A DNA stretch of 64,000 nt. It comes from Acidimicrobiales bacterium. Lineage in GTDB: Bacteria > Actinomycetota > Acidimicrobiia > Acidimicrobiales > Aldehydirespiratoraceae. Where the stretch lies: positions 124,001 to 188,000 of the forward strand of contig JAVJSI010000007.1 in NCBI GenBank assembly GCA_040219515.1. Reading direction: 5' to 3'. The notes under the pieces are model-generated. The model did no database searches, had not been told where the DNA came from, and saw nothing but the letters and a program-made list of their open reading frames with translations. Both the position numbers and the translations under genes were made by a program. Positions 461-10,416 of this stretch are shown piece by piece (positions within the stretch are counted from its first letter, which is position 1; every line of letters starts with the position of its first letter).

Positions 461-805
461 TCATTCGTCGACCCCGGGGGCCGTGAAGTACTCGGGCCGG
501 CTCACATGGGTCTCGCTCACGAACATCACGCCGTGGGTGTTGTCGAGCACTCGCCGAATGCCGGCGACCAGCGACTCGGCGTGCTCGATCGGAATGATGC
601 TGATGAGCAGCGAAAGACTGTTGCGGTCGTTGAAGAGCAGACGCCCTTCGTGTTGTCCGCCATGACCGAATCCCGACACTCCGTGGAGTGCCGTGTAGCC
701 CGTTGCCCCCGAGGCGAGCAACAGGTCCCGAATCGTGGGGACGTGCTCGCCGTCGATGACGACCTCGATTCGAGCCATGGGCGTCAACCCTGTCCAGCTG
801 TTCAT
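461..805 (-). CDS. PII-like signalling protein coupled to the DabB-DabA fusion gene
   Basis: This 114-residue protein has the beta-alpha-beta ferredoxin-like pattern of PII-like proteins: ARIEVVIDGEHVPTIRDLL, a glycine/histidine loop GVSGFGHGG about where a T-loop would be, then a second beta-alpha-beta half with LLISIIPIEHAESLV. Its ATG overlaps the stop of the preceding DabB-DabA gene as ATGA, so the two are almost certainly cotranscribed and translationally coupled. PII-like proteins encoded beside DUF2309/DabA or SbtA bicarbonate transporters elsewhere bind adenine nucleotides and modulate carbon uptake. By analogy this one probably senses nucleotide or bicarbonate state and gates the fused transporter. 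That function is inferred from context and fold; binding residues cannot be assigned from sequence alone. Confidence 0.75.
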   Translation of the reverse strand: MNSWTGLTPMARIEVVIDGEHVPTIRDLLLASGATGYTALHGVSGFGHGGQHEGRLLFNDRNSLSLLISIIPIEHAESLVAGIRRVLDNTHGVMFVSETHVSRPEYFTAPGVDE

Positions 806-3800
806 GCGTTGTCCTCTTTCGCTCTGGGAATGTGGCTTGCTGTGGGGAAGGGGTCGGCGTCGAACGCCTGAGGGGTTTCGATCCAGGTTCCGGACGGGGT
901 TCGTGTCGACCATCGTTCGTGCGGCTGCGAACGTCCGGCGATGCGAAGCCATGATCCTCCGGTCAGGGTCTGGAGGATGGGATTGGCGGCGATGATGCCT
1001 TCGATCCGGGTGAGGTCCGCCTGGATCACCGCCAGCAGCCGCACCGGCTGATGAAAGCGCCGACCGTCGACGTGGGTGCTCTGGAGTGGAAGCCCGACCC
1101 GGAGATCGCCGCCGTCGCCGGAGATCACCCCGGTGGTGCCGATCGGATTGTGGAGGAGCTTGTCGCCGGCGCCGAAGGCCTGGGGGTCCACGGTGGAGAA
1201 GTAGTACTGGCTGGAGATCCAGTGCCCGACGACGAGCGGCGCCGTCATGATGGTCTCCAGCACCCGGCCCGTGGGATCGTCCTCGGCGTCATAGGTGTGC
1301 AGGAAGGCGCGCCCCTCGAGGTCGATGCCGGCGGTCAACGACCGTGGGCCGATGATGAAGGCCGCGTTACGGGCGAGACCCCACTCGGGACGGACCTGGG
1401 CCCAGTCGGCGCCACGGTCGCGCACCTTCGACGCAGTCCCGGGCAAGTGGGTCGATCGCGCGGCCGCCTGACGTCGGCCGGCGACCTCGAGTGTCTCTTC
1501 CAGCGTGTCCACGAGCCGACGGTGTTCGGTGGGGATGTCGGCGACGTCGAGCAGGGTCACGCGATCGGCGGCGGTGTCGTGCAGACCGGCGGCGAACCAC
1601 GTGTCGTCGGGAATCGCGATTCCACGGGTCTCGAGGCCATGCCGCACGTCGGGTGAGTTGAGCAGTGCGGCCACGGCTCGAGCGTTGTCATCGCCGGAGG
1701 CTCCCGCGCATGCGCCACATTCGAGAGCAGTGGCGTGCGGGTTGTTCGTGGTGCGGCTGGTGTGGCCGCAGAGAACCACGATCGGCGCGAACCGATCGGT
1801 GAGCCCCATCGTCTTGAGCACCGACTCGGCGAAGAACGTCCGCTGCTCGAGGAGGACCTCGTCGTCATCGAGGAGCATCCGAGTCGGTGGCATCGCCGGC
1901 ATCGCCGACACGCCGGGCCGGAACGTCTTCCATGCGGCTCTGGGCCCGAGGAACCAGCCCGCGGTCTCGGCGAGGGCAAACGGCGAGCCCGGGCCGTGCT
2001 TCGCGCCGGCGTGGGCCGCGAGCAGCCCGGCCGCCGTGCGTTGACGGCCCAGCCCTGCGGCCGCCTGTTCGATGCAATGCTCGCGCGGCTGCTCTGATGC
2101 GCTGATGGCCGGTGCCACCAGCACCGGACACCGTGGTTCGTGGTGGTCCCATCCGAGCTTGCGGATCTGCATCGGTACGCCGAAGAACCCGGCGAATCCG
2201 ATCGTCTCGAAGTTGCCGAGCGCCTCGACGTGGCTGCGGAGCCCCTCGGAGCGGACATCGATGCAGAAGACCATCTGGGCGTCGGGACGAGTCGTCGCTC
2301 TCCCGGGGTCCAGGCGGCTGAGCTTGGAGAGGAGGCCGGCATCGATCGTCCGTTCCTGCGCCTCCAACCACAGCGAGGCCCGGTCCTGCGCCGGCACCTC
2401 GGACAGCACCGCCCGGATCGCTGCCCGGTCCGAGCGGCTCCCACGGGGGGCGAGAACGGCCGCCACCGCTGCGACCCTGGCATCGAGGAGGTCTTCGTCG
2501 CCGCTTTCTCCCTCGTCGTCTCGTTGCGCCGACCGCGACTCCGGTCGCGGGTCGACGACGGTCCCCGACCCGAACACCGCCGCCTCGAGCAGCGCCCGGA
2601 TCGCGACCACGTCGATCGGCGTCAACGGAGGCCGTTGCTCGTCGGGCTGGGCCCACTCGCTCCTCCACTTCGCCAGGCCGGACCAGCCGGCGAGGCGGCA
2701 CAACTGGCTGCGCACCTCGTCGACACGGTCATCGTCGGCGACGCCCGACACTGCGAAGGCGGCGTCGATGATCACCGCCGGATCCGAGCCGAGCGACTGG
2801 ACCCAACGGCGCGACGGGGCAGAGAGTAGCGACGCGAGCCGGGGATCGGCGACCATCAGTCGGCAGCCCATGGTCACGAAGCTCTCCCCCGCTCGATGAG
2901 CCGGCCAGTGGGGTGGCTCGACGTAGGCCGACAGCCATGACGACACCACGTCGTCCACGACCGCACCCGCGCGACCGAGTCCACGACGCTCGAGCGCAGT
3001 CGGCACTCTCGCCGGCTGCGGCGAGTCCGGCCCGTGCAGGAGATCGGCGACGATCACGTCGACGGGAGAGACCGCCTGTCCGCCGATCGCCACCGGAGCG
3101 CGCTCGCAGAGTTCCGTGAACCGGTAGAGGGCGACGTGGACGAGGTCACCGGCCCGCGAGAGGCCGAGTTCGTGGTCTCGCCGATATTCATCGAGTGTGA
3201 GGTGGGTCTTGGCACCGTGCCAACGACGCGCGGTCTCCGCCGCGGTGTCGAACCCGAGCGACTCCATCCCGCCGAGGGGGTTGACGGCGACGAAGGAGGA
3301 AAGCGGCCACTGCGGCGCGATCACGGCACTCGCTTGGGATACGTCGGCCCGGATCTCGGCCCGACGGGCACCCTTGGTCGACGGGACCACGAACTCCGAT
3401 GGTGGGGTCCCGGTCGACTCGGTCCGGAGTCGCCACGACACACTGTCGGATCCGCCCAGCCGCACCACCAGGTGCCGGAGACGGTCACGGGTGGCGGCGC
3501 CCCCCGTTCCCGGCAGCAGAACCAGCGTTCCCGCCGCGCCGGCGACGACAGCCATGACCGCCACGAGCTCGCCCGAACCCACGACCGTCGCGCCGGCCAC
3601 GGCCTCGACCGACGGCTTCATGAACGCCTCGGCGAGACGCAGGCCACCGACGTAGGTCATTGCGGCGACCACCGATCCGAGCGTGCCGACGACCACGGAG
3701 CCGATTGTGGTGAACGGCGCCCGCGTCAACCAGCCGTGCATGCCCGTTGCGATCGTGAGCCAGGCGAAGGCGAAGACGAGGATCTCGCCGGCCGGCGAGA

Positions 3801-4965
3801 CGTCGGGACGAATGACGGTCCCGGCCACCCCGACCGCCACCGCGGCGGCTGCCGCCGACGCGAGCAGGGCGGCGCTCCGTGGGATCTCGACCGCACCGGG
3901 GGGCCGCCGACGCGCCCGGAGACCCCCGGCCGCGGTGTCGCCGGAACCGAGGAACAGTGCAGCCTTGTACATGCCGTGGCCGGCGATGTGAAAGACCGCG
4001 CTGCTGAATGCGCCGACCGAACACTGGACCACCATGAAGGCCATCTGGGCAACCGTGGACCAGGCGAGGGTCCCCTTGACGTCGGAGCGCACCAGCATCG
4101 ACCCCGTGGCGACGACGATGGTGACGACGCCGAGGGCGAACGCCAGGGCCACCGCGATGTCCGATGCCACGAACGGCGACGCGAACCGCAGGAGCAACAA
4201 CCCCGCTCCGCTCACCAGACCGGCATGCACCAGGGCCGAGACCGGTGTCGGTGCCGCCAGCGTCCCGATCAACCAGCGTTGGAACGGCACCATCGCGGAG
4301 CGCGACGCTCCGGCGACCACGACCAACACCATGACCACGTCCAGCGTCTCGAAACCGAGGGTGGTGGAGTTCCGCAGCGCGTCTGTCGCGTCGGCGGCAT
4401 TGCCGGTCAGGATTCCATCGCTGTGACGCGAGGCCAGGACGAGCCCGCCCAGCAGGGCCAGGTCACCGATCAGGAGCGTGCGCCGGATACGCGCTCGGGC
4501 CCGACGCGCCGTCGACCATGTCGACTCGAAGCCGACCAGCCCGACGAGGGCCCATCCGGACAGGATCCAACCGAGCGCCAGCAACAGGGGCGACACAGGA
4601 AGCACCACCATCGCCGATCCGAATGCCACAATTCCGACCAGCGCGAAGTAGCGGCTCGCACGGCCGTCGTCGTCGAGCGACCGGGACGAGAAGCCGGCGA
4701 TCACCGCAACGGTCCCCATGACGACGGTGAGCAACAGGGCACTCACCCGGTCGATCGAAGCATCCATCCATTCGGCGGTGACGATCGTTCCGTCCTCGTC
4801 GAGGCCGCTCATCACGACCAGGACGAGCGCCGCGGCGAAGGCGAGCACCCCGGCCAGCGTCACCACTCGAGCAGATCGACGGGCATCCCCGAGGGAAAGG
4901 GCCAGGGCCGCACCGACGAGCGGCGCGAACGCCGCGACGACGACGGCGACGCTTGCGGGTATCAC
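802..4965 (-). CDS. Fused DabB-DabA inorganic-carbon transporter (NuoL-like membrane domain plus DUF2309 carbonic-anhydrase-like domain)
   Basis: One 1387-residue frame carries two proteins that are usually separate. Residues about 1-490 are a polytopic proton-translocating domain of the NuoL/MrpA/DabB family, with the family signature APTPVSALVHAGL and a later HGMYKAALFLG helix that keeps the conserved Lys. From about residue 550 (APQWPLSSFVAVNPLGG) to the end it is DabA (DUF2309). The beta-carbonic-anhydrase-like zinc set is intact: Cys901 and Asp903 in FCIDVRSEG, His1068 in VVLCGHTSRTTNNP, and Cys1083 in ECGACAG. The His-Cys gap of 15 matches characterised DabA. Such complexes couple cation or proton flux to CO2 hydration, accumulating bicarbonate in the cytoplasm. 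The GTG start has GGAG four bases upstream. No carboxysome or RuBisCO gene is in the window, so bicarbonate may feed carboxylases of heterotrophic metabolism (inference). Confidence 0.88.
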   Translation of the reverse strand: MIPASVAVVVAAFAPLVGAALALSLGDARRSARVVTLAGVLAFAAALVLVVMSGLDEDGTIVTAEWMDASIDRVSALLLTVVMGTVAVIAGFSSRSLDDDGRASRYFALVGIVAFGSAMVVLPVSPLLLALGWILSGWALVGLVGFESTWSTARRARARIRRTLLIGDLALLGGLVLASRHSDGILTGNAADATDALRNSTTLGFETLDVVMVLVVVAGASRSAMVPFQRWLIGTLAAPTPVSALVHAGLVSGAGLLLLRFASPFVASDIAVALAFALGVVTIVVATGSMLVRSDVKGTLAWSTVAQMAFMVVQCSVGAFSSAVFHIAGHGMYKAALFLGSGDTAAGGLRARRRPPGAVEIPRSAALLASAAAAAVAVGVAGTVIRPDVSPAGEILVFAFAWLTIATGMHGWLTRAPFTTIGSVVVGTLGSVVAAMTYVGGLRLAEAFMKPSVEAVAGATVVGSGELVAVMAVVAGAAGTLVLLPGTGGAATRDRLRHLVVRLGGSDSVSWRLRTESTGTPPSEFVVPSTKGARRAEIRADVSQASAVIAPQWPLSSFVAVNPLGGMESLGFDTAAETARRWHGAKTHLTLDEYRRDHELGLSRAGDLVHVALYRFTELCERAPVAIGGQAVSPVDVIVADLLHGPDSPQPARVPTALERRGLGRAGAVVDDVVSSWLSAYVEPPHWPAHRAGESFVTMGCRLMVADPRLASLLSAPSRRWVQSLGSDPAVIIDAAFAVSGVADDDRVDEVRSQLCRLAGWSGLAKWRSEWAQPDEQRPPLTPIDVVAIRALLEAAVFGSGTVVDPRPESRSAQRDDEGESGDEDLLDARVAAVAAVLAPRGSRSDRAAIRAVLSEVPAQDRASLWLEAQERTIDAGLLSKLSRLDPGRATTRPDAQMVFCIDVRSEGLRSHVEALGNFETIGFAGFFGVPMQIRKLGWDHHEPRCPVLVAPAISASEQPREHCIEQAAAGLGRQRTAAGLLAAHAGAKHGPGSPFALAETAGWFLGPRAAWKTFRPGVSAMPAMPPTRMLLDDDEVLLEQRTFFAESVLKTMGLTDRFAPIVVLCGHTSRTTNNPHATALECGACAGASGDDNARAVAALLNSPDVRHGLETRGIAIPDDTWFAAGLHDTAADRVTLLDVADIPTEHRRLVDTLEETLEVAGRRQAAARSTHLPGTASKVRDRGADWAQVRPEWGLARNAAFIIGPRSLTAGIDLEGRAFLHTYDAEDDPTGRVLETIMTAPLVVGHWISSQYYFSTVDPQAFGAGDKLLHNPIGTTGVISGDGGDLRVGLPLQSTHVDGRRFHQPVRLLAVIQADLTRIEGIIAANPILQTLTGGSWLRIAGRSQPHERWSTRTPSGTWIETPQAFDADPFPTASHIPRAKEDNA

Positions 4966-5049
4966 TTCGCTCCGATCGAACGGTGACGGGCACGCGCCGC
5001 GGTACGCCCCCCGAGTTCATCGACCCGACCTGTCTCTGCCCCAACTGAA

Positions 5050-5099
5050 TGCATGGGTTGCAATATATGTATTCTGTTTCATGTATTGCAACCCATGCA
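5050..5099. promoter_or_regulatory. Long perfect inverted repeat in the dab/regulator intergenic region (candidate operator)
   Basis: TGCATGGGTTGCAATA (5050-5065) is matched by its exact reverse complement at 5084-5099, a 16-bp arm on each side of an 18-bp AT-rich spacer. It lies 24 bp before the regulator start and 84 bp before the DAB start, where divergent promoters would be. The spacer is notably AT-rich for this genome. The likely ligand is the adjacent winged-helix protein as autoregulator and regulator of dab. That is an inference from position and symmetry. Confidence 0.6.
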
Positions 5100-5123
5100 A
5101 CGAGGTTGTGTAGAGTTGGCGCG

Positions 5124-5438
5124 GTGGCCTCACGTTCCGACTCTCGCTCATGGACGTTCCTCACCAACCACGCCCACGTGCTGCTTGCCATCTCTTCGAC
5201 GCCCGACATCCGGATCCGCGACCTCGCACTGCTCGTGGGTGTCACCGAACGAACGGCGATGCAGATCATCGACGATCTGGAAGCCGGCGGATACATCACC
5301 AGAGAGCGACTCGGCCGCCGCAACCGCTACCACATCGATCGGGCGCACCCGTTGCGACATCCTCTCGAGGAGCACCACGAGATCGACGCGCTCCTCCGAG
5401 CGGTCTCCCATGAGACCGCCGACCCGCCGGCACCCTGA
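5124..5438 (+). CDS. Winged-helix (MarR/ArsR-like) transcriptional regulator divergent from the DAB gene
   Basis: This 104-residue protein is essentially one winged helix-turn-helix: TFLTNHAHVLLAISSTPDIR, then a recognition segment LALLVGVTERTAMQIIDDL and the wing GYITRERLGRRNRYHI. The C-terminus is short (HPLRHPLEEHHEIDALL) and may dimerise. No effector-binding domain or metal-binding Cys/His cluster is obvious. I chose the GTG at 5124 because the frame upstream runs into the inverted repeat. It is divergent from the DabB-DabA gene across 158 bp containing a 16-bp-arm palindrome, so it probably regulates both itself and the transporter. Repressor or activator, and the signal, cannot be told from sequence. 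Confidence 0.75.
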   Translation: MASRSDSRSWTFLTNHAHVLLAISSTPDIRIRDLALLVGVTERTAMQIIDDLEAGGYITRERLGRRNRYHIDRAHPLRHPLEEHHEIDALLRAVSHETADPPAP

Positions 5439-5467: not shown

Positions 5468-6247
5468 ATGATGAATAGCTCGATCCTCGACCGGTTCCGA
5501 CTCGACGGAAAGGTGGCGGTCGTGACCGGGGCCTCGTCCGGACTCGGGGTCGCGTTCGCGCGGGCGCTCGCCGAGGCGGGTGCCGATGTCGCCCTCGGGG
5601 CCCGCCGAGTCGACCGGCTCGAGGACACCCGGACCCTCGTGGAAGCCAGGGGCCGGCGCGGCATCGCGGTGCGATGCGATGTGACCGAACCCGGCGACTG
5701 CGAACAACTCATCGGCGAGACCGTCGACCAACTCGGCCGGGTCGACATCCTCGTCAACAACGCCGGTGTGGCGTCCGCAGTGCCGAGCACCCGCGAGGAG
5801 CCCGACAACTTCCGCAACGTCATGAACGTCAACGTGAACGGCACCTACTGGATGTCACAGGCCGCCGCCCGGGTCATGCCGGCCGGCTCCGCCATCGTGA
5901 ACATCGGCAGCGTGACCGGCTACATCTCCGCCGGACTCCCCCAGGCGGCCTACGTCACGAGCAAGACGGCGCTCATCGGACTCACCCGCGACCTCGCCCA
6001 GCAGTGGACCGGCCGCAAGGGCATCCGGGTCAACACGCTGGCGCTCGGCTGGTTCCCCACCGACATGACCGCCGCCCACGCCGACGGCTACCTCGACAAG
6101 ATCGCCGAGATCGCGCCGATGGGGCGACTGGGCGACGCAGAGGAGGCCGCCGCCGCGCTGGTGTTCCTCGCCAGCCCCGCGTCGTCGTACGTGACCGGCA
6201 CAGTCCTGTTGGCCGACGGCGGCATCCTCACGTCGCTCACGGTCTGA
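5468..6247 (+). CDS. SDR-family NAD(P)-dependent oxidoreductase
   Basis: Classical short-chain dehydrogenase of 259 residues. The nucleotide-binding TGASSGLG lies near residue 20, NNAG near residue 97, and the catalytic set is Ser148 (NIGSVTG), Tyr162 and Lys166 (AAYVTSK). It lacks any appended domain. Most similar in style to glucose-1-dehydrogenase or 3-oxoacyl-ACP reductase-like SDRs, but the substrate cannot be read from sequence. ADVALGARRVDRLED after the glycine motif has an Arg pair that may favour NADP(H). Two ATG codons (5468 and 5471) are adjacent; the first is used here. It follows the winged-helix gene by 29 bp on the same strand and could share its transcript. Confidence 0.85.
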   Translation: MMNSSILDRFRLDGKVAVVTGASSGLGVAFARALAEAGADVALGARRVDRLEDTRTLVEARGRRGIAVRCDVTEPGDCEQLIGETVDQLGRVDILVNNAGVASAVPSTREEPDNFRNVMNVNVNGTYWMSQAAARVMPAGSAIVNIGSVTGYISAGLPQAAYVTSKTALIGLTRDLAQQWTGRKGIRVNTLALGWFPTDMTAAHADGYLDKIAEIAPMGRLGDAEEAAAALVFLASPASSYVTGTVLLADGGILTSLTV

Positions 6248-6272
6248 GCCGAGAGCAGCGTGGTCAGGTCCC

Positions 6273-7553
6273 CTACTCGCGCTCGGCGGCCGACGTGTTC
6301 GGGGCACCGAGCCACCGCAGGACCGGTGCGGCGAGCGTGCCGTGGACGAAGAGCGACAACACGATACTGAGGGCGACCACGGTCCACAGGGTCGATGCCT
6401 CGGCGAAGTCGGCGGTGCTGAGCGCGTAGGCCAGGTAGAAGATCGAGCCGATCCCCTTGATGCCGAAGAAGGCGATGGTGGCTCGCTGTCCGTTGCCCAG
6501 ACCGGAACCGATGAGCGCGACGAGTCCGACCGCCGGGCGGACGACCAGCACCACCGCCACCGCAACCAGCACATCTCGCAGCGCAACACCCTCGAGAACC
6601 CCGGTCGTGAGCGACGCGCCGAAGAGCACGACGATGATCACGACGAGCACATGCTCGAGCTGCTCGACGAACCTGTGGAGCACGCGGTGGTAGTCGTGGT
6701 GGCGCTCGAAGCTCCGTACGGTGACCCCGGCCGCGAAAACGGCGAGAAAGCCGTAGCCGGAGATCGCTTCCGCGGCGGCGTAGGCGGTGAGCAACGTCGC
6801 CACGCCGACGAATCCGTCGCCCGCCTCCGAGAGCTTGGCCAGCCGCCTCGGCGGGAGGAACGCGAGGCGGCCCACGAGCCAGCCGACCACCACGCCGACC
6901 ACCGCACCCGCGGCGACGCGGTAGATCAGGTCCACGGCAAACCAGCGGACGACGTCGCCCGTTTCCACCGAGCCGGCGACGAGGAGGATCGCGGCATACA
7001 CGAACGGGAAGGCCAGCGCGTCGTTGAGACCCGCCTCACTGGTCAGCGTGGTGAGCACCTCGTCATGGATCGCCTCGGTGCCCTCATCGCCGTCACCGCC
7101 CGATGTGGGCTCACCGACCTGCACCTCGCGAGCGAGTACCGGGTCGGTGGGTGCCAGGACCGCTCCCAGGAGCAACGCGCTCGCAAGCGGCAGTCCGAGC
7201 ACCCCGATGCCCAGCAGCGTCGTGGCCGCGATCCCGAGAGGCATCGCGATACCGAGCAACCGCCATGTCGTGCTCCAGCGTCGCCACCCGATCGGCCGAT
7301 CGATTGCCAGGCCGGCGGCCATGAGCGAGACGAGGACGCCGAACTCCGTGAGCCGCTCGGTCACCTCGAGTTCCACGGTGGCGTCGGGCACGACGTCGGA
7401 ACCAACCGCAAGATGCAGCCCCGCACCCAGCGTGACCATGATCATCGGCACCGACACCGGGCGCTCCGCCACGATCGCGGGGAGTACAGCCGCCACCAGC
7501 GCGGCGAAACCGACCACCAGAACCACCGACTCGTACGGATCCGTGGAGATCAT
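6273..7553 (-). CDS. CPA1-family Na+(K+)/H+ antiporter
   Basis: The 426-residue protein is almost entirely hydrophobic with about a dozen membrane segments. Hallmarks of the CPA1 (NhaP) branch are LLGAVLAPTDPVLA in the discontinuous helix region and TSEAGLNDALAFP, which carries the Asn-Asp ion-binding pair. A short soluble loop GEPTSGGDGDEGTEA separates them. There is no C-terminal RCK or cyclic-nucleotide domain. Expected role: exchange of Na+ or K+ for H+ at the cytoplasmic membrane for pH and ion homeostasis. It converges on the SDR gene (25 bp between stops) and is followed upstream by a 137-bp gap before the zinc permease gene, in which I see no feature. Confidence 0.87.
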   Translation of the reverse strand: MISTDPYESVVLVVGFAALVAAVLPAIVAERPVSVPMIMVTLGAGLHLAVGSDVVPDATVELEVTERLTEFGVLVSLMAAGLAIDRPIGWRRWSTTWRLLGIAMPLGIAATTLLGIGVLGLPLASALLLGAVLAPTDPVLAREVQVGEPTSGGDGDEGTEAIHDEVLTTLTSEAGLNDALAFPFVYAAILLVAGSVETGDVVRWFAVDLIYRVAAGAVVGVVVGWLVGRLAFLPPRRLAKLSEAGDGFVGVATLLTAYAAAEAISGYGFLAVFAAGVTVRSFERHHDYHRVLHRFVEQLEHVLVVIIVVLFGASLTTGVLEGVALRDVLVAVAVVLVVRPAVGLVALIGSGLGNGQRATIAFFGIKGIGSIFYLAYALSTADFAEASTLWTVVALSIVLSLFVHGTLAAPVLRWLGAPNTSAAERE

Positions 7554-7690
7554 GCGGTCCGGGCAACCTGTTCCTCGACTGTGGAGAGCATCGCCGTTCG
7601 CGAGCCTCGGTGCGTTGAACTACCCAACACCGCACGTCCGCAAACACCCCGACGTGTGACGCGAGAAGACCGGTGGCAGTCCCGAGCGTC

Positions 7691-8539
7691 TCAGGCGATG
7701 ACGACAGGCTGATCGGTTCGACGTAGCGCAACGACGGCCTCGCGTCCGGCCAGCACGATGAAGAACTGCAAGACGCTGAACCCCGCGATGGTGGCGCCAC
7801 CCGCGGTGCCGTGATGGAAGCTCACCACCAACCCCGCAGCCACGGCGACCGTACCGAGCAGCATCGAGGTGACCATGATGGCCGGGACACGATGCACGAG
7901 GAGCGACGCGGTGGCAGGCGGTCCCACCAGGAGGCCGAAGACCAGCAACGTCCCGATTGCCTGGAAGCTGGCCACGATACTCAGCGCCAGCAACCCCAAC
8001 AGCGCAGCCTGCGCGAGTTGCGGACGCATGCCCAAGGTCTGCGCCTTGGCCCGATTGAACGTCAGGGCAAGAAACGGCCGATACAACACGACCGTCGAGA
8101 CGACCACGATGGCCGTCGCCACGATCTGGTTGCGGATGTCACCGCGGGTGACGCCCAACACGTCGCCGAACAACAGCGCGGTCACTTCGGTCGAGAACGA
8201 GCGAGCCCGCGACACGATCACGATCCCCAGTGACAGCATCCCGACGAACAACAACCCGATCGCGGTGTCCTCGCGGACAATCGTCCGGTTCGACACGACG
8301 CTCACCAGTCCGCTCATCACCAGTGCGGCCACGAAGGCGCCGATGATCGGACTGAAGCCCCACAGCACCGCGAGCGCAATACCGGGGATGACGCCGTGGG
8401 CCAGCGCGTCGCCGAGAAACGCCAGCCCGCGCAGGACGACCCAGGTCCCCACCAACGATGTGGCAACGACCGCGATCAGGCTTCCGATGAGCGCCCGCTG
8501 CATGAACGCGGGTTCGAATGCTTCGAAGAGATAGTCCAT
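7691..8539 (-). CDS. znuB: Zinc ABC transporter permease (ABC-3 family)
   Basis: A 282-residue integral membrane protein of the ABC-3 metal permease family, with around eight hydrophobic segments and the conserved pieces LRGLAFLGDALAHGVIPG and ALLFGDVLGVTRGDI. It lies 15 bp downstream of the substrate-binding lipoprotein gene on the same strand, so the two are one operon. The ATPase is encoded divergently, so a complete importer is present at the locus. Assignment to zinc rather than manganese follows from the His-rich partner protein and the Fur-family gene beside the ATPase; the permease alone does not distinguish them. Confidence 0.88.
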   Translation of the reverse strand: MDYLFEAFEPAFMQRALIGSLIAVVATSLVGTWVVLRGLAFLGDALAHGVIPGIALAVLWGFSPIIGAFVAALVMSGLVSVVSNRTIVREDTAIGLLFVGMLSLGIVIVSRARSFSTEVTALLFGDVLGVTRGDIRNQIVATAIVVVSTVVLYRPFLALTFNRAKAQTLGMRPQLAQAALLGLLALSIVASFQAIGTLLVFGLLVGPPATASLLVHRVPAIMVTSMLLGTVAVAAGLVVSFHHGTAGGATIAGFSVLQFFIVLAGREAVVALRRTDQPVVIA

Positions 8540-8554
8540 CGCCGACAGGCCGCC

Positions 8555-9562
8555 TCAGCCGGCGACGGCGTCGACGATGCGCCGGGCGTTTGTTCGCACC
8601 ATGTCGAGATAGGTGCCACCGTCGGAATCGTCGGCTCCGAGCGATTCCGAGTAGAGCTCGACAACCGCGACATCACCGACTTCGCTGGCCAGGGTCTGCA
8701 CGAGTTCGTCGGACGAGGAAGTATCGGCGAAGATCGCAGGCACGCCCTCTTCCTCGATCAGCTCGGCGAGCTCAGCCAACGCCTGGGCACTGGTGCCGTC
8801 GGTAGTGCTCCCCGAAGGGATCACCGTGCCGACGACCTCGAAGACGAAGCGGTCGGCGAAGTAGCCGAACACCTCATGATCGGTCAGCAATACTCGATCA
8901 TCTGCATCGATTGCGGCCAGCATCTCGTCCACCTCGCTGTCGAGTGCCTCGAGCTCGTCGACATACGCCGCTGCCGAGGAGCTCAGGGCTTCCGCATCGA
9001 TGCCATCGACATTGGCGACCAAGAAGTCTGCGATGGCATCGGCGGCCAACGCCATGCGTGCCGGATCGGTGAAGAAGTGCGGATCGGCTCCCTCGTGGTC
9101 ATGCCCGTCGTGGTCCTCATCGGCATGGTCCTCATCGGCATGGCCCTCATCCGCATGGTCGTGTCCGCCTTCTCCGAACTCGATCGTTTCCACGGCGCTG
9201 ATCGCTTCGAAGACGGGGACCCCGTCGGCCTCAGATGCCTCGATCACGTCGAGGAGGCCCTCTTCGAACCCTGCACCGTTGACGATGAGCACATCGGCCT
9301 CGCCGATCTGGGCGACCTGCTGCGCCGATGCCTGGAAGTCGTGGGGATCAGCCCCTACCGGCATGATCGTGACGACATCGAACCCGTCGCCGACCAGATT
9401 CTCGACGACATCACCGAGGATGTTGGTCGTCACCACGATCGTCGGCCGTTCGTTGGCCACGCTCCCAGTCTCGGAGCCGGTGCTGCTGTCGTCGCCGCAT
9501 CCGGCGGCCACCAGTGCGAACATCGCGATGATTACGACGAGCAGAGGATTCGAGACCCTCAT
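8555..9562 (-). CDS. znuA: Zinc ABC transporter substrate-binding lipoprotein
   Basis: The 335-residue protein begins with a lipoprotein signal peptide ending LVAAGC, placing the lipidated Cys at residue 22. It is a cluster A-I (TroA/ZnuA) binding protein: VGADPHDFQAS supplies the first metal His, DPHFFTDP the second, and DHEVFGYF a third. A long loop rich in His, Asp and Glu (about residues 130-170) is typical of zinc binders rather than manganese binders. The loop is encoded by short tandem DNA repeats, so its length may vary between strains. It delivers Zn2+ to the adjacent permease. Expression is probably controlled by the palindrome at 9634-9650. Confidence 0.9.
   Translation of the reverse strand: MRVSNPLLVVIIAMFALVAAGCGDDSSTGSETGSVANERPTIVVTTNILGDVVENLVGDGFDVVTIMPVGADPHDFQASAQQVAQIGEADVLIVNGAGFEEGLLDVIEASEADGVPVFEAISAVETIEFGEGGHDHADEGHADEDHADEDHDGHDHEGADPHFFTDPARMALAADAIADFLVANVDGIDAEALSSSAAAYVDELEALDSEVDEMLAAIDADDRVLLTDHEVFGYFADRFVFEVVGTVIPSGSTTDGTSAQALAELAELIEEEGVPAIFADTSSSDELVQTLASEVGDVAVVELYSESLGADDSDGGTYLDMVRTNARRIVDAVAG
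9116..9160 (-). repeat. Three tandem 15-bp units encoding the His/Asp-rich loop of the zinc-binding protein
   Basis: The unit CTCATCGGCATGGTC is repeated three times with one change in each of copies two and three. Read on the minus strand the units give His-Ala-Asp-Glu-Asp/Gly pentapeptides. A partial, more diverged unit precedes them. Slippage here would change the length of the metal-binding loop without breaking the frame. Confidence 0.85.
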
Positions 9563-9633
9563 GGATCACACTCCAGATTGAGAACCACTATTACTATCGG
9601 CACGCTAGACCGATGTGGGGATACCACCAACTC

Positions 9634-9650
9634 GAAACGAGAATCGTTTC
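9634..9650. promoter_or_regulatory. Candidate Zur box between divergent znuA and znuC
   Basis: GAAACGA, three spacer bases and TCGTTTC form a perfect 7-3-7 palindrome. Its centre is 37 bp before the ATPase start and about 80 bp before the binding-protein start. Fur-family regulators bind palindromes of this size, and the adjacent gene encodes one, so a zinc-dependent repressor site for both transcripts is the natural reading. The exact consensus for this lineage is not known to me. Confidence 0.6.
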
Positions 9651-9678
9651 CGTTCCCAACACGATCTAGCCTGTTGAT

Positions 9679-10416
9679 GTGACCTCAGCGATCAGCACCC
9701 GTGGACTCGAGGTCCGTTTTGGCGACAAGGTCGCGTTGTCGGGCGTGGACCTCGAGGTCCCCCCGGGGACTTCACTGGCGGTGATCGGTCCGAACGGGTC
9801 GGGCAAATCCACCCTCTTGGGCGCCCTGGCGGGAACACTCGCAGCCAGCAGGGGTGCGGCAGTCGTCGCCGGTTCGGGACCGGCGTTGGTGTTGCAATCG
9901 ACCGATGTCGATCGCAGCCTGCCGATCACCGTTCGCGATGCCGTCTCGCTGGCCCGGTATCCGAGCCTCGGCCTGTTCGGGCGGTTTCGCGCCGAGGACC
10001 ATCGCTGTGTGGACGAAGCACTCGAGCGGCTCGCGGTGGACGATCTTGCCGGCCGTCAATTCCATGAGCTCTCCGGTGGCCAGCGCCAGCGAGTGCTCGT
10101 TGCGCAAGGCCTCGCGCAGAACACCGACGTGTTGCTGCTCGACGAACCGGTGAACGGTCTCGATGTCGTGTCGCGAGCCGTCATCCTGGATGTGATCGAA
10201 ACTGAAATCTCCGCCGGCCGGACCGTCGTGGTGACCACCCACAACCTCGATGATGCCGGCCGCTGCGACCAGGTCTTGCTCCTCGACCGCTCGCCCATTG
10301 CGGTAGGTCCACCCCACACAGTGCTGACCGAGCACCATCTACGCCGCGCCTTCGGTGGCCGGTTCATCCGCATCGGCGACCACCTGATGCTCGACGATCC
10401 CCACCACAGCCACTGA
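9679..10416 (+). CDS. znuC: Zinc ABC transporter ATP-binding protein
   Basis: The 245-residue ATPase has the Walker A motif GPNGSGKST near residue 40, signature LSGGQRQRV, Walker B VLLLDEP and the switch His in VVTTHNLDD. Its length and the absence of extra domains fit the metal-importer ATPases (ZnuC/MntB type). It starts at a GTG 29 bp after the palindrome and is divergent from znuA-znuB, with which it must assemble. The zur gene follows on the same strand after 62 bp, so the two probably share a promoter. Metal specificity is inferred from the neighbours. Confidence 0.88.
   Translation: MTSAISTRGLEVRFGDKVALSGVDLEVPPGTSLAVIGPNGSGKSTLLGALAGTLAASRGAAVVAGSGPALVLQSTDVDRSLPITVRDAVSLARYPSLGLFGRFRAEDHRCVDEALERLAVDDLAGRQFHELSGGQRQRVLVAQGLAQNTDVLLLDEPVNGLDVVSRAVILDVIETEISAGRTVVVTTHNLDDAGRCDQVLLLDRSPIAVGPPHTVLTEHHLRRAFGGRFIRIGDHLMLDDPHHSH

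Follow-up and report, generated by a model that had tools for sequence, protein, structure and literature searches.

A natural DabB-DabA gene fusion in an Acidimicrobiales genome without a RuBisCO match

The fused gene and its surroundings

The window analyzed in this study is a stretch of 64,000 nucleotides from the genome of an Acidimicrobiales bacterium (assembly GCA_040219515.1, contig JAVJSI010000007.1, positions 124,001 to 188,000). One stop-free frame on the minus strand (802–4965; GTG start at 4965, stop at 802–804) encodes a protein of 1387 residues with a calculated mass of about 146 kDa. The motif GGAG is located four bases 5' of the start codon. Pfam profiles identified Proton_antipo_M (PF00361) at residues 128 to 344 (E = 3.2e-28) and DabA (PF10070) at residues 542 to 1340 (E = 2.3e-213), the latter match being complete (profile positions 1–747 of 747). 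Comparison with solved structures by phmmer aligned the two chains of the DAB2 complex of Halothiobacillus neapolitanus (PDB 9rd0), DabB2 and DabA2, to residues 67–412 (E = 1.9e-29) and 534–1351 (E = 2.1e-110), respectively. Based on the Pfam matches, on homology to the DAB2 chains and, for the first half, on a predicted model, the protein consists of a NuoL-like DabB half (about residues 1–525; 3391–4965, minus strand) and a DabA half (about residues 532–1387; 802–3372, minus strand), joined by a linker (about residues 505–531; 3373–3453, minus strand) with pLDDT under 50 at residues 506–525. These results confirm the presence of DabB and DabA in a single polypeptide, as proposed in a preliminary description of this DNA, which gave no strand for the gene.

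In 93 of the 115 loci classified below, DabB occupies a separate frame immediately upstream of DabA, so that a single insertion or deletion could merge the two genes, and a false fusion of this kind exists in Svornostia abyssi (L041). In the window frame, there was no low-GC stretch: third-position GC was 0.82–0.88 in intervals from residue 421 to residue 570 and 0.78 at residues 541–600, with no break across the junction. The same fusion is present in L034, which belongs to a separate genome assembly of the same order and is the closest relative covering the junction (in the best blastp segments, 57% identity for DabA and 48% for DabB). The window protein can be aligned with L034 through the final helices of DabB and the linker, and third-position GC in L034 is likewise unbroken at the junction. 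Since L034 is fused in the same manner, an assembly error at this site is very improbable, and we attach next to no weight to a frameshift or misassembly having joined two separate genes. Thus, dabB-dabA of the window is a genuine gene fusion, and the frameshift or sequencing error considered at the junction by the preliminary description was not found. Another alternative is that an internal start leads to production of free DabA in addition to the full fusion. GTG codons are present near the junction at residues 500, 501, 509, 526, and 548, but none is preceded by a ribosome-binding site that appeared convincing by eye, and residues 481–560 contain no ATG or TTG codon. Production of both forms is therefore highly improbable.

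A gene encoding a PII-like protein of 114 residues (461–805, minus strand; Pfam P-II, E = 9.1e-17, scanned as a longer reading at 464–856) overlaps the fused gene, its ATG and the dabBA stop codon forming the sequence ATGA. Of 114 DabA loci, 111 of them with 400 or more bases of downstream sequence, 21 have a PII-like open reading frame directly after DabA, and two further loci have one about 3 kb away. Such a frame occurs with split as well as with fused pairs and is thus not tied to fusion. The fused loci harboring it are the window (L001), L034, and, by coordinates, L123, and no PII-like match was obtained in scans of L011 and L043. According to the available parts of the source, SbtA, a bicarbonate transporter, is bound by the PII-like protein SbtB, and co-expression of the two in E. 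coli abolished SbtA uptake (PMC8438413). We infer that the DAB of the window is controlled by the overlapping PII-like gene.

The region upstream from dabBA contains two operator-like dyads (5049–5100), with TTGCAACCCATGCAA at 5086–5100 on the plus strand and a one-mismatch copy at 5049–5063 on the minus strand. The dyads overlap a weak promoter-like match (9/12; 5062–5091) reading towards dabBA. Searched at up to one mismatch, the 15-mer TTGCAACCCATGCAA occurs only at these two places in the genome; a looser form, TTGCANNNNNTGCAA, was also found once each in L028 and L031. An inverted repeat at 5034–5115, with 36-base arms that are 78% complementary, contains both dyads. A divergent open reading frame (5049–5438, plus strand) encodes a MarR-like winged-helix protein (Pfam MarR_2, E = 3.9e-07) whose true start is probably inside this span. 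A Na+/H+ exchanger gene (PF00999; 6276–7553, minus strand) has no close counterpart in six genomes of the same genus, three of which contain matches of 28–31% identity and three none. Judged by eye, two open reading frames at 7691–9562 on the minus strand resemble genes for zinc uptake, one looking like the permease of a metal ABC transporter and the other like a binding protein whose loop is rich in His and Asp.

Catalytic residues, predicted fold, and known DAB systems

Residues reported in the available text of the 2026 cryo-EM study of DAB2 (PMC13144422) were mapped onto the window protein by pairwise and multiple alignments. Cys351, Asp353, His524, and Cys539 of DabA2 correspond exactly to Cys901, Asp903, His1068, and Cys1083. 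The Cys901-Ile-Asp903 motif (2257–2265, minus strand) provides a zinc ligand, Cys901, and the aspartate of the Asp-Arg dyad, and is followed by Arg905; the other two zinc ligands are His1068 (1762–1764, minus strand) and Cys1083 (1717–1719, minus strand), separated by the same His-Cys spacing of 15 as in DabA2. Each of Cys901, Asp903, Arg905, His1068, and Cys1083 was invariant in the 60 aligned rows. The zinc-site set and the spacing listed in the preliminary description were accurate to the residue number, and the ligands do align with those of DabA. The window protein is identical to DabA2 at Cys351, Asp353, Arg355, Ser356, Phe375, Ala376, Phe378, His524, Cys539, His585, Asp590, Leu658, His684, Val696, Ile700, Ala703, and Pro704, and to DabB2 at all seven listed residues of the proton path (Ser256, His260, Lys310, Ser316, His339, His343, and Lys347). 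Alanine at the zinc, dyad, and proton-path residues of DAB2 is reported, in the parts of the study accessible to us, to impair function (PMC13144422).

The finger glutamate of DabA2, Glu444, whose replacement is described in the same text as abolishing activity (PMC13144422), was aligned with Glu1000 (1966–1968, minus strand). This assignment rests on multiple alignments, in which 55 of the 60 rows have Glu in this column, four have Gly, and one has Asp, with Glu in all five fused rows shown; the pairwise alignment instead places Glu444 at Ala984. Loss of the finger glutamate, suspected from the pairwise alignment, was dropped once the multiple alignments gave Glu1000.

An AlphaFold2 model of residues 1–1200, obtained with an alignment of 57 rows, had a pLDDT of 74.3 and a pTM of 0.65. 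In a VIA fold search, the model matched NuoL/ND5/MrpA-type chains with Z scores of 29–34 among the 50 rows listed, the best of which (Z = 33.6, 415 residues, rmsd 4.5) indicates a NuoL-like fold for the membrane half. The matches span mainly model residues 1–521. In three of the 50 rows, the aligned range extends to residue 1012–1013, which would fit location of the finger helices (962–989, 994–1001, and 1003–1015 in the model) within the NuoL-like bundle.

The window protein and DAB2 of H. neapolitanus (PDB 9rd0) have in common both domains, the zinc site, the finger glutamate, and the proton-path residues. They differ in that DAB2 is encoded by two genes and in the ion pairs, since the pairwise alignment showed that Ile151 and Asp185 are kept whereas Arg182 and Lys235 are replaced by Leu165 and Arg222, respectively. 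Alanine at the ion-pair residues is said to lower the growth yield conferred by DAB2 by 30–60% (PMC13144422, available text). The contrast with two-gene systems drawn in the preliminary description holds for DAB2 itself and is otherwise overstated. In the accessible portions of PMC13144422, a natural single-subunit complex is reported in Acidimicrobium ferrooxidans, with an attribution to Schmid 2021, and, compared through that description, it likewise has a single chain in which DabB precedes DabA. Because of this report, the DabB-DabA fusion as such is already known and does not define a new type of system. The same portions report a working engineered fusion of the DabB2 C-terminus to the DabA2 N-terminus, said to mirror the A. 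ferrooxidans subunit, with no significant change in growth yield (PMC13144422). They also describe DAB2 as a heterodimer, so that the fixed one-to-one stoichiometry put forward as a gain of fusion changes little, and the wild-type two-subunit complex as unstable during sample preparation. In the literature searched on DabB-DabA fusion or a PII link, this paper, available in part, was the only one bearing on fusion.

Distribution and origin of fused genes

DabA was detected in 43 of 394 genomes of the class (at least 85% complete), in 22 of 396 genomes of the phylum (at least 90% complete), and in four of 61 relatives, including the genome of the window. A search of 36 further family genomes, six of them of the same genus and some incomplete, gave no DabA match, indicating that DabA is dispensable in the family. 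Classification of 115 loci by a script identified DabB in a separate frame ending no more than 245 bases from the DabA match in 93 cases, a single frame in five, no DabB upstream in 16, many of which are at contig ends, and no DabA in one. These counts are no census, since the contig scan returned the best 80 of 590 and the query alignment was led by a fused protein; in addition, L003 and L007, L033 and L057, and L025 and L065 overlap or share identical DabA rows. The one-frame loci were the window, L034, L011, L043 (Jiella mangrovi), and L041. Among 18 loci designated L120 to L137, one, L123, is a true fusion.

The S. abyssi locus was rejected as a fusion because, in the stretch between the two halves, third-position GC drops from 0.93–1.00 to 0.60–0.73, and DabB ends in another frame. 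A simple search for co-occurring domains would count a false fusion in this chromosome around 5671–9795. In the other five fused frames, including L123, third-position GC was at least 0.73 across the region examined. The length of a stop-to-stop frame was also discarded as evidence for fusion: ten genomes of the class had DabA frames of 1100–1460 codons, and in seven of the ten DabB was in another frame.

Two other arrangements were observed. The phylum loci L120–L122, L124, L128, and L130 encode a longer DabA type (about 1210–1255 residues over the 747-position profile); DabA is followed by a DabB-like frame and, in some loci, also preceded by one. In L060, L062, L083, L094, and L097 (Nitrospina, Nitrospirota), DabB was not found directly upstream of DabA; a DabB-like frame is present downstream in these loci except L097.

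The careful DabA tree was based on 59 chosen rows of 117. Five fused genes required four changes on this tree if L037, whose contig begins inside DabA, and L041 were left unscored, and five if both were counted as not fused. A clade uniting the fused genes was recovered in 0% of 200 bootstrap trees. The first DabA tree, made from 109 rows when L041 still counted as fused and L123 was not included, gave five changes, and a DabB tree built by a quick method (49 of 54 rows) gave four, with L123 as a long branch. On the DabA tree and the DabB tree alike, the fused L011, carried by a single-contig genome (G073), was surrounded by split relatives of another family, and its fusion and that of the window belonged to separate clades. 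The nearest titled DabA relative of the window on the tree, among the matches listed, is L037, from an Acidimicrobiales bacterium, and the nearest split relatives are L019 and L022, of the same order, and L126, of the same phylum. Gene order is the same in these three pairs, which have DabB and DabA in two frames versus one in the window; a PII-like match was found in L126 only, adjoining DabA by coordinates. The four tree positions of true fusions among the loci examined are new. They suggest that the fusion probably arose repeatedly; one origin followed by many splitting events is less economical.

Proposed function in a host without a RuBisCO match

The host genome (4.02 Mb in 19 contigs) contained no match for the RuBisCO large chain (PF00016), the BMC shell protein (PF00936), or PYC_OADA of pyruvate carboxylase (PF02436). 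The lack of a carboxysome context reported for the neighborhood in the preliminary description thus extends to the whole genome for the first two profiles. The host is presumably a heterotroph, whereas H. neapolitanus is a chemolithoautotroph (PMC13144422, available text). A precedent in a non-autotroph is provided by MpsAB of Staphylococcus aureus, likened here by description, a homologue of the DAC that is proposed to catalyze Na+/HCO3- symport; mpsAB is reportedly crucial at atmospheric CO2 and complements a carbonic anhydrase mutant of E. coli, according to partially available sources.

We propose, with a probability of roughly 0.85, that the window protein is a single-chain DAB (DAC) acting as a proton-driven vectorial carbonic anhydrase that supplies bicarbonate for biosynthesis, with likely gating by PII. 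The first half would form a NuoL-like membrane proton channel, into which the finger motif of the second, β-carbonic-anhydrase-like DabA half is expected to insert with Glu1000. Protons driven inward by the membrane potential would open up the buried zinc site, leading to one-way hydration of CO2 to bicarbonate. The latter would most likely be used at low CO2 by biosynthetic enzymes that carry out carboxylations, and the product of the overlapping PII-like gene would most likely gate the pump in response to the energy or carbon state. The single-chain DAB is genuine and appears to be functional, and it may have pump activity. Of the energy-coupled, single-gene CO2-hydrating pump envisioned initially, the fusion and the zinc site were borne out; "single-gene" is incomplete, as a PII-like gene overlaps the stop codon. 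The proposal that this DAB is the only CO2 hydrase of the host is unsupported: the genome contains one β-carbonic-anhydrase match (partial, positions 2–81 of 156, in a 202-residue open reading frame).

The protein might instead import bicarbonate coupled to sodium, as proposed for MpsAB, a homologue cited as a putative Na+/HCO3- symporter in the accessible parts of PMC13144422, and a Na+/H+ exchanger gene does lie nearby (6276–7553). This exchanger is, however, a separate gene, located beyond the MarR-like and SDR genes, and the zinc site, the Asp-Arg dyad, and the proton-path residues match those of DAB2, which, in the same excerpts, did not rescue a Na+-transporter mutant and was fully active without sodium (PMC13144422). 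We consider sodium-coupled import unlikely and favor proton-driven hydration of CO2.

A RuBisCO match was detected in 11 of 23 genomes tested, two of the matches being weak or partial only (G045 and G522). Among genomes with a fused gene, RuBisCO was matched in one of five (G073) and not in G000, G373 (91% complete), G710, or G762 (Jiella). Among non-fused genomes, 10 of 18 had a match and eight had none. The association between fusion and the absence of RuBisCO is therefore weak (no match in 4/5 versus 8/18). We tentatively suggest that fusion evolved four or more times in this sample (window and L034; L011; L043; L123), and that joining may be associated with pumps used by heterotrophs, in the lineage of the window with PII control. 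Our confidence in this combined suggestion, already below even odds, was lowered slightly because non-fused genomes often lack RuBisCO too.

The aspects worth following are the recurrence of fusion and the lack of a RuBisCO match in the host. A natural one-gene pump would spare the balancing of subunits when CO2 uptake is moved into plants or other hosts. Repeated independent fusion, if true, would argue on evolutionary grounds that DabA and DabB function as close partners. A genome that encodes such a pump but gave no RuBisCO match lends further support to the view that this family supplies bicarbonate beyond autotrophy.
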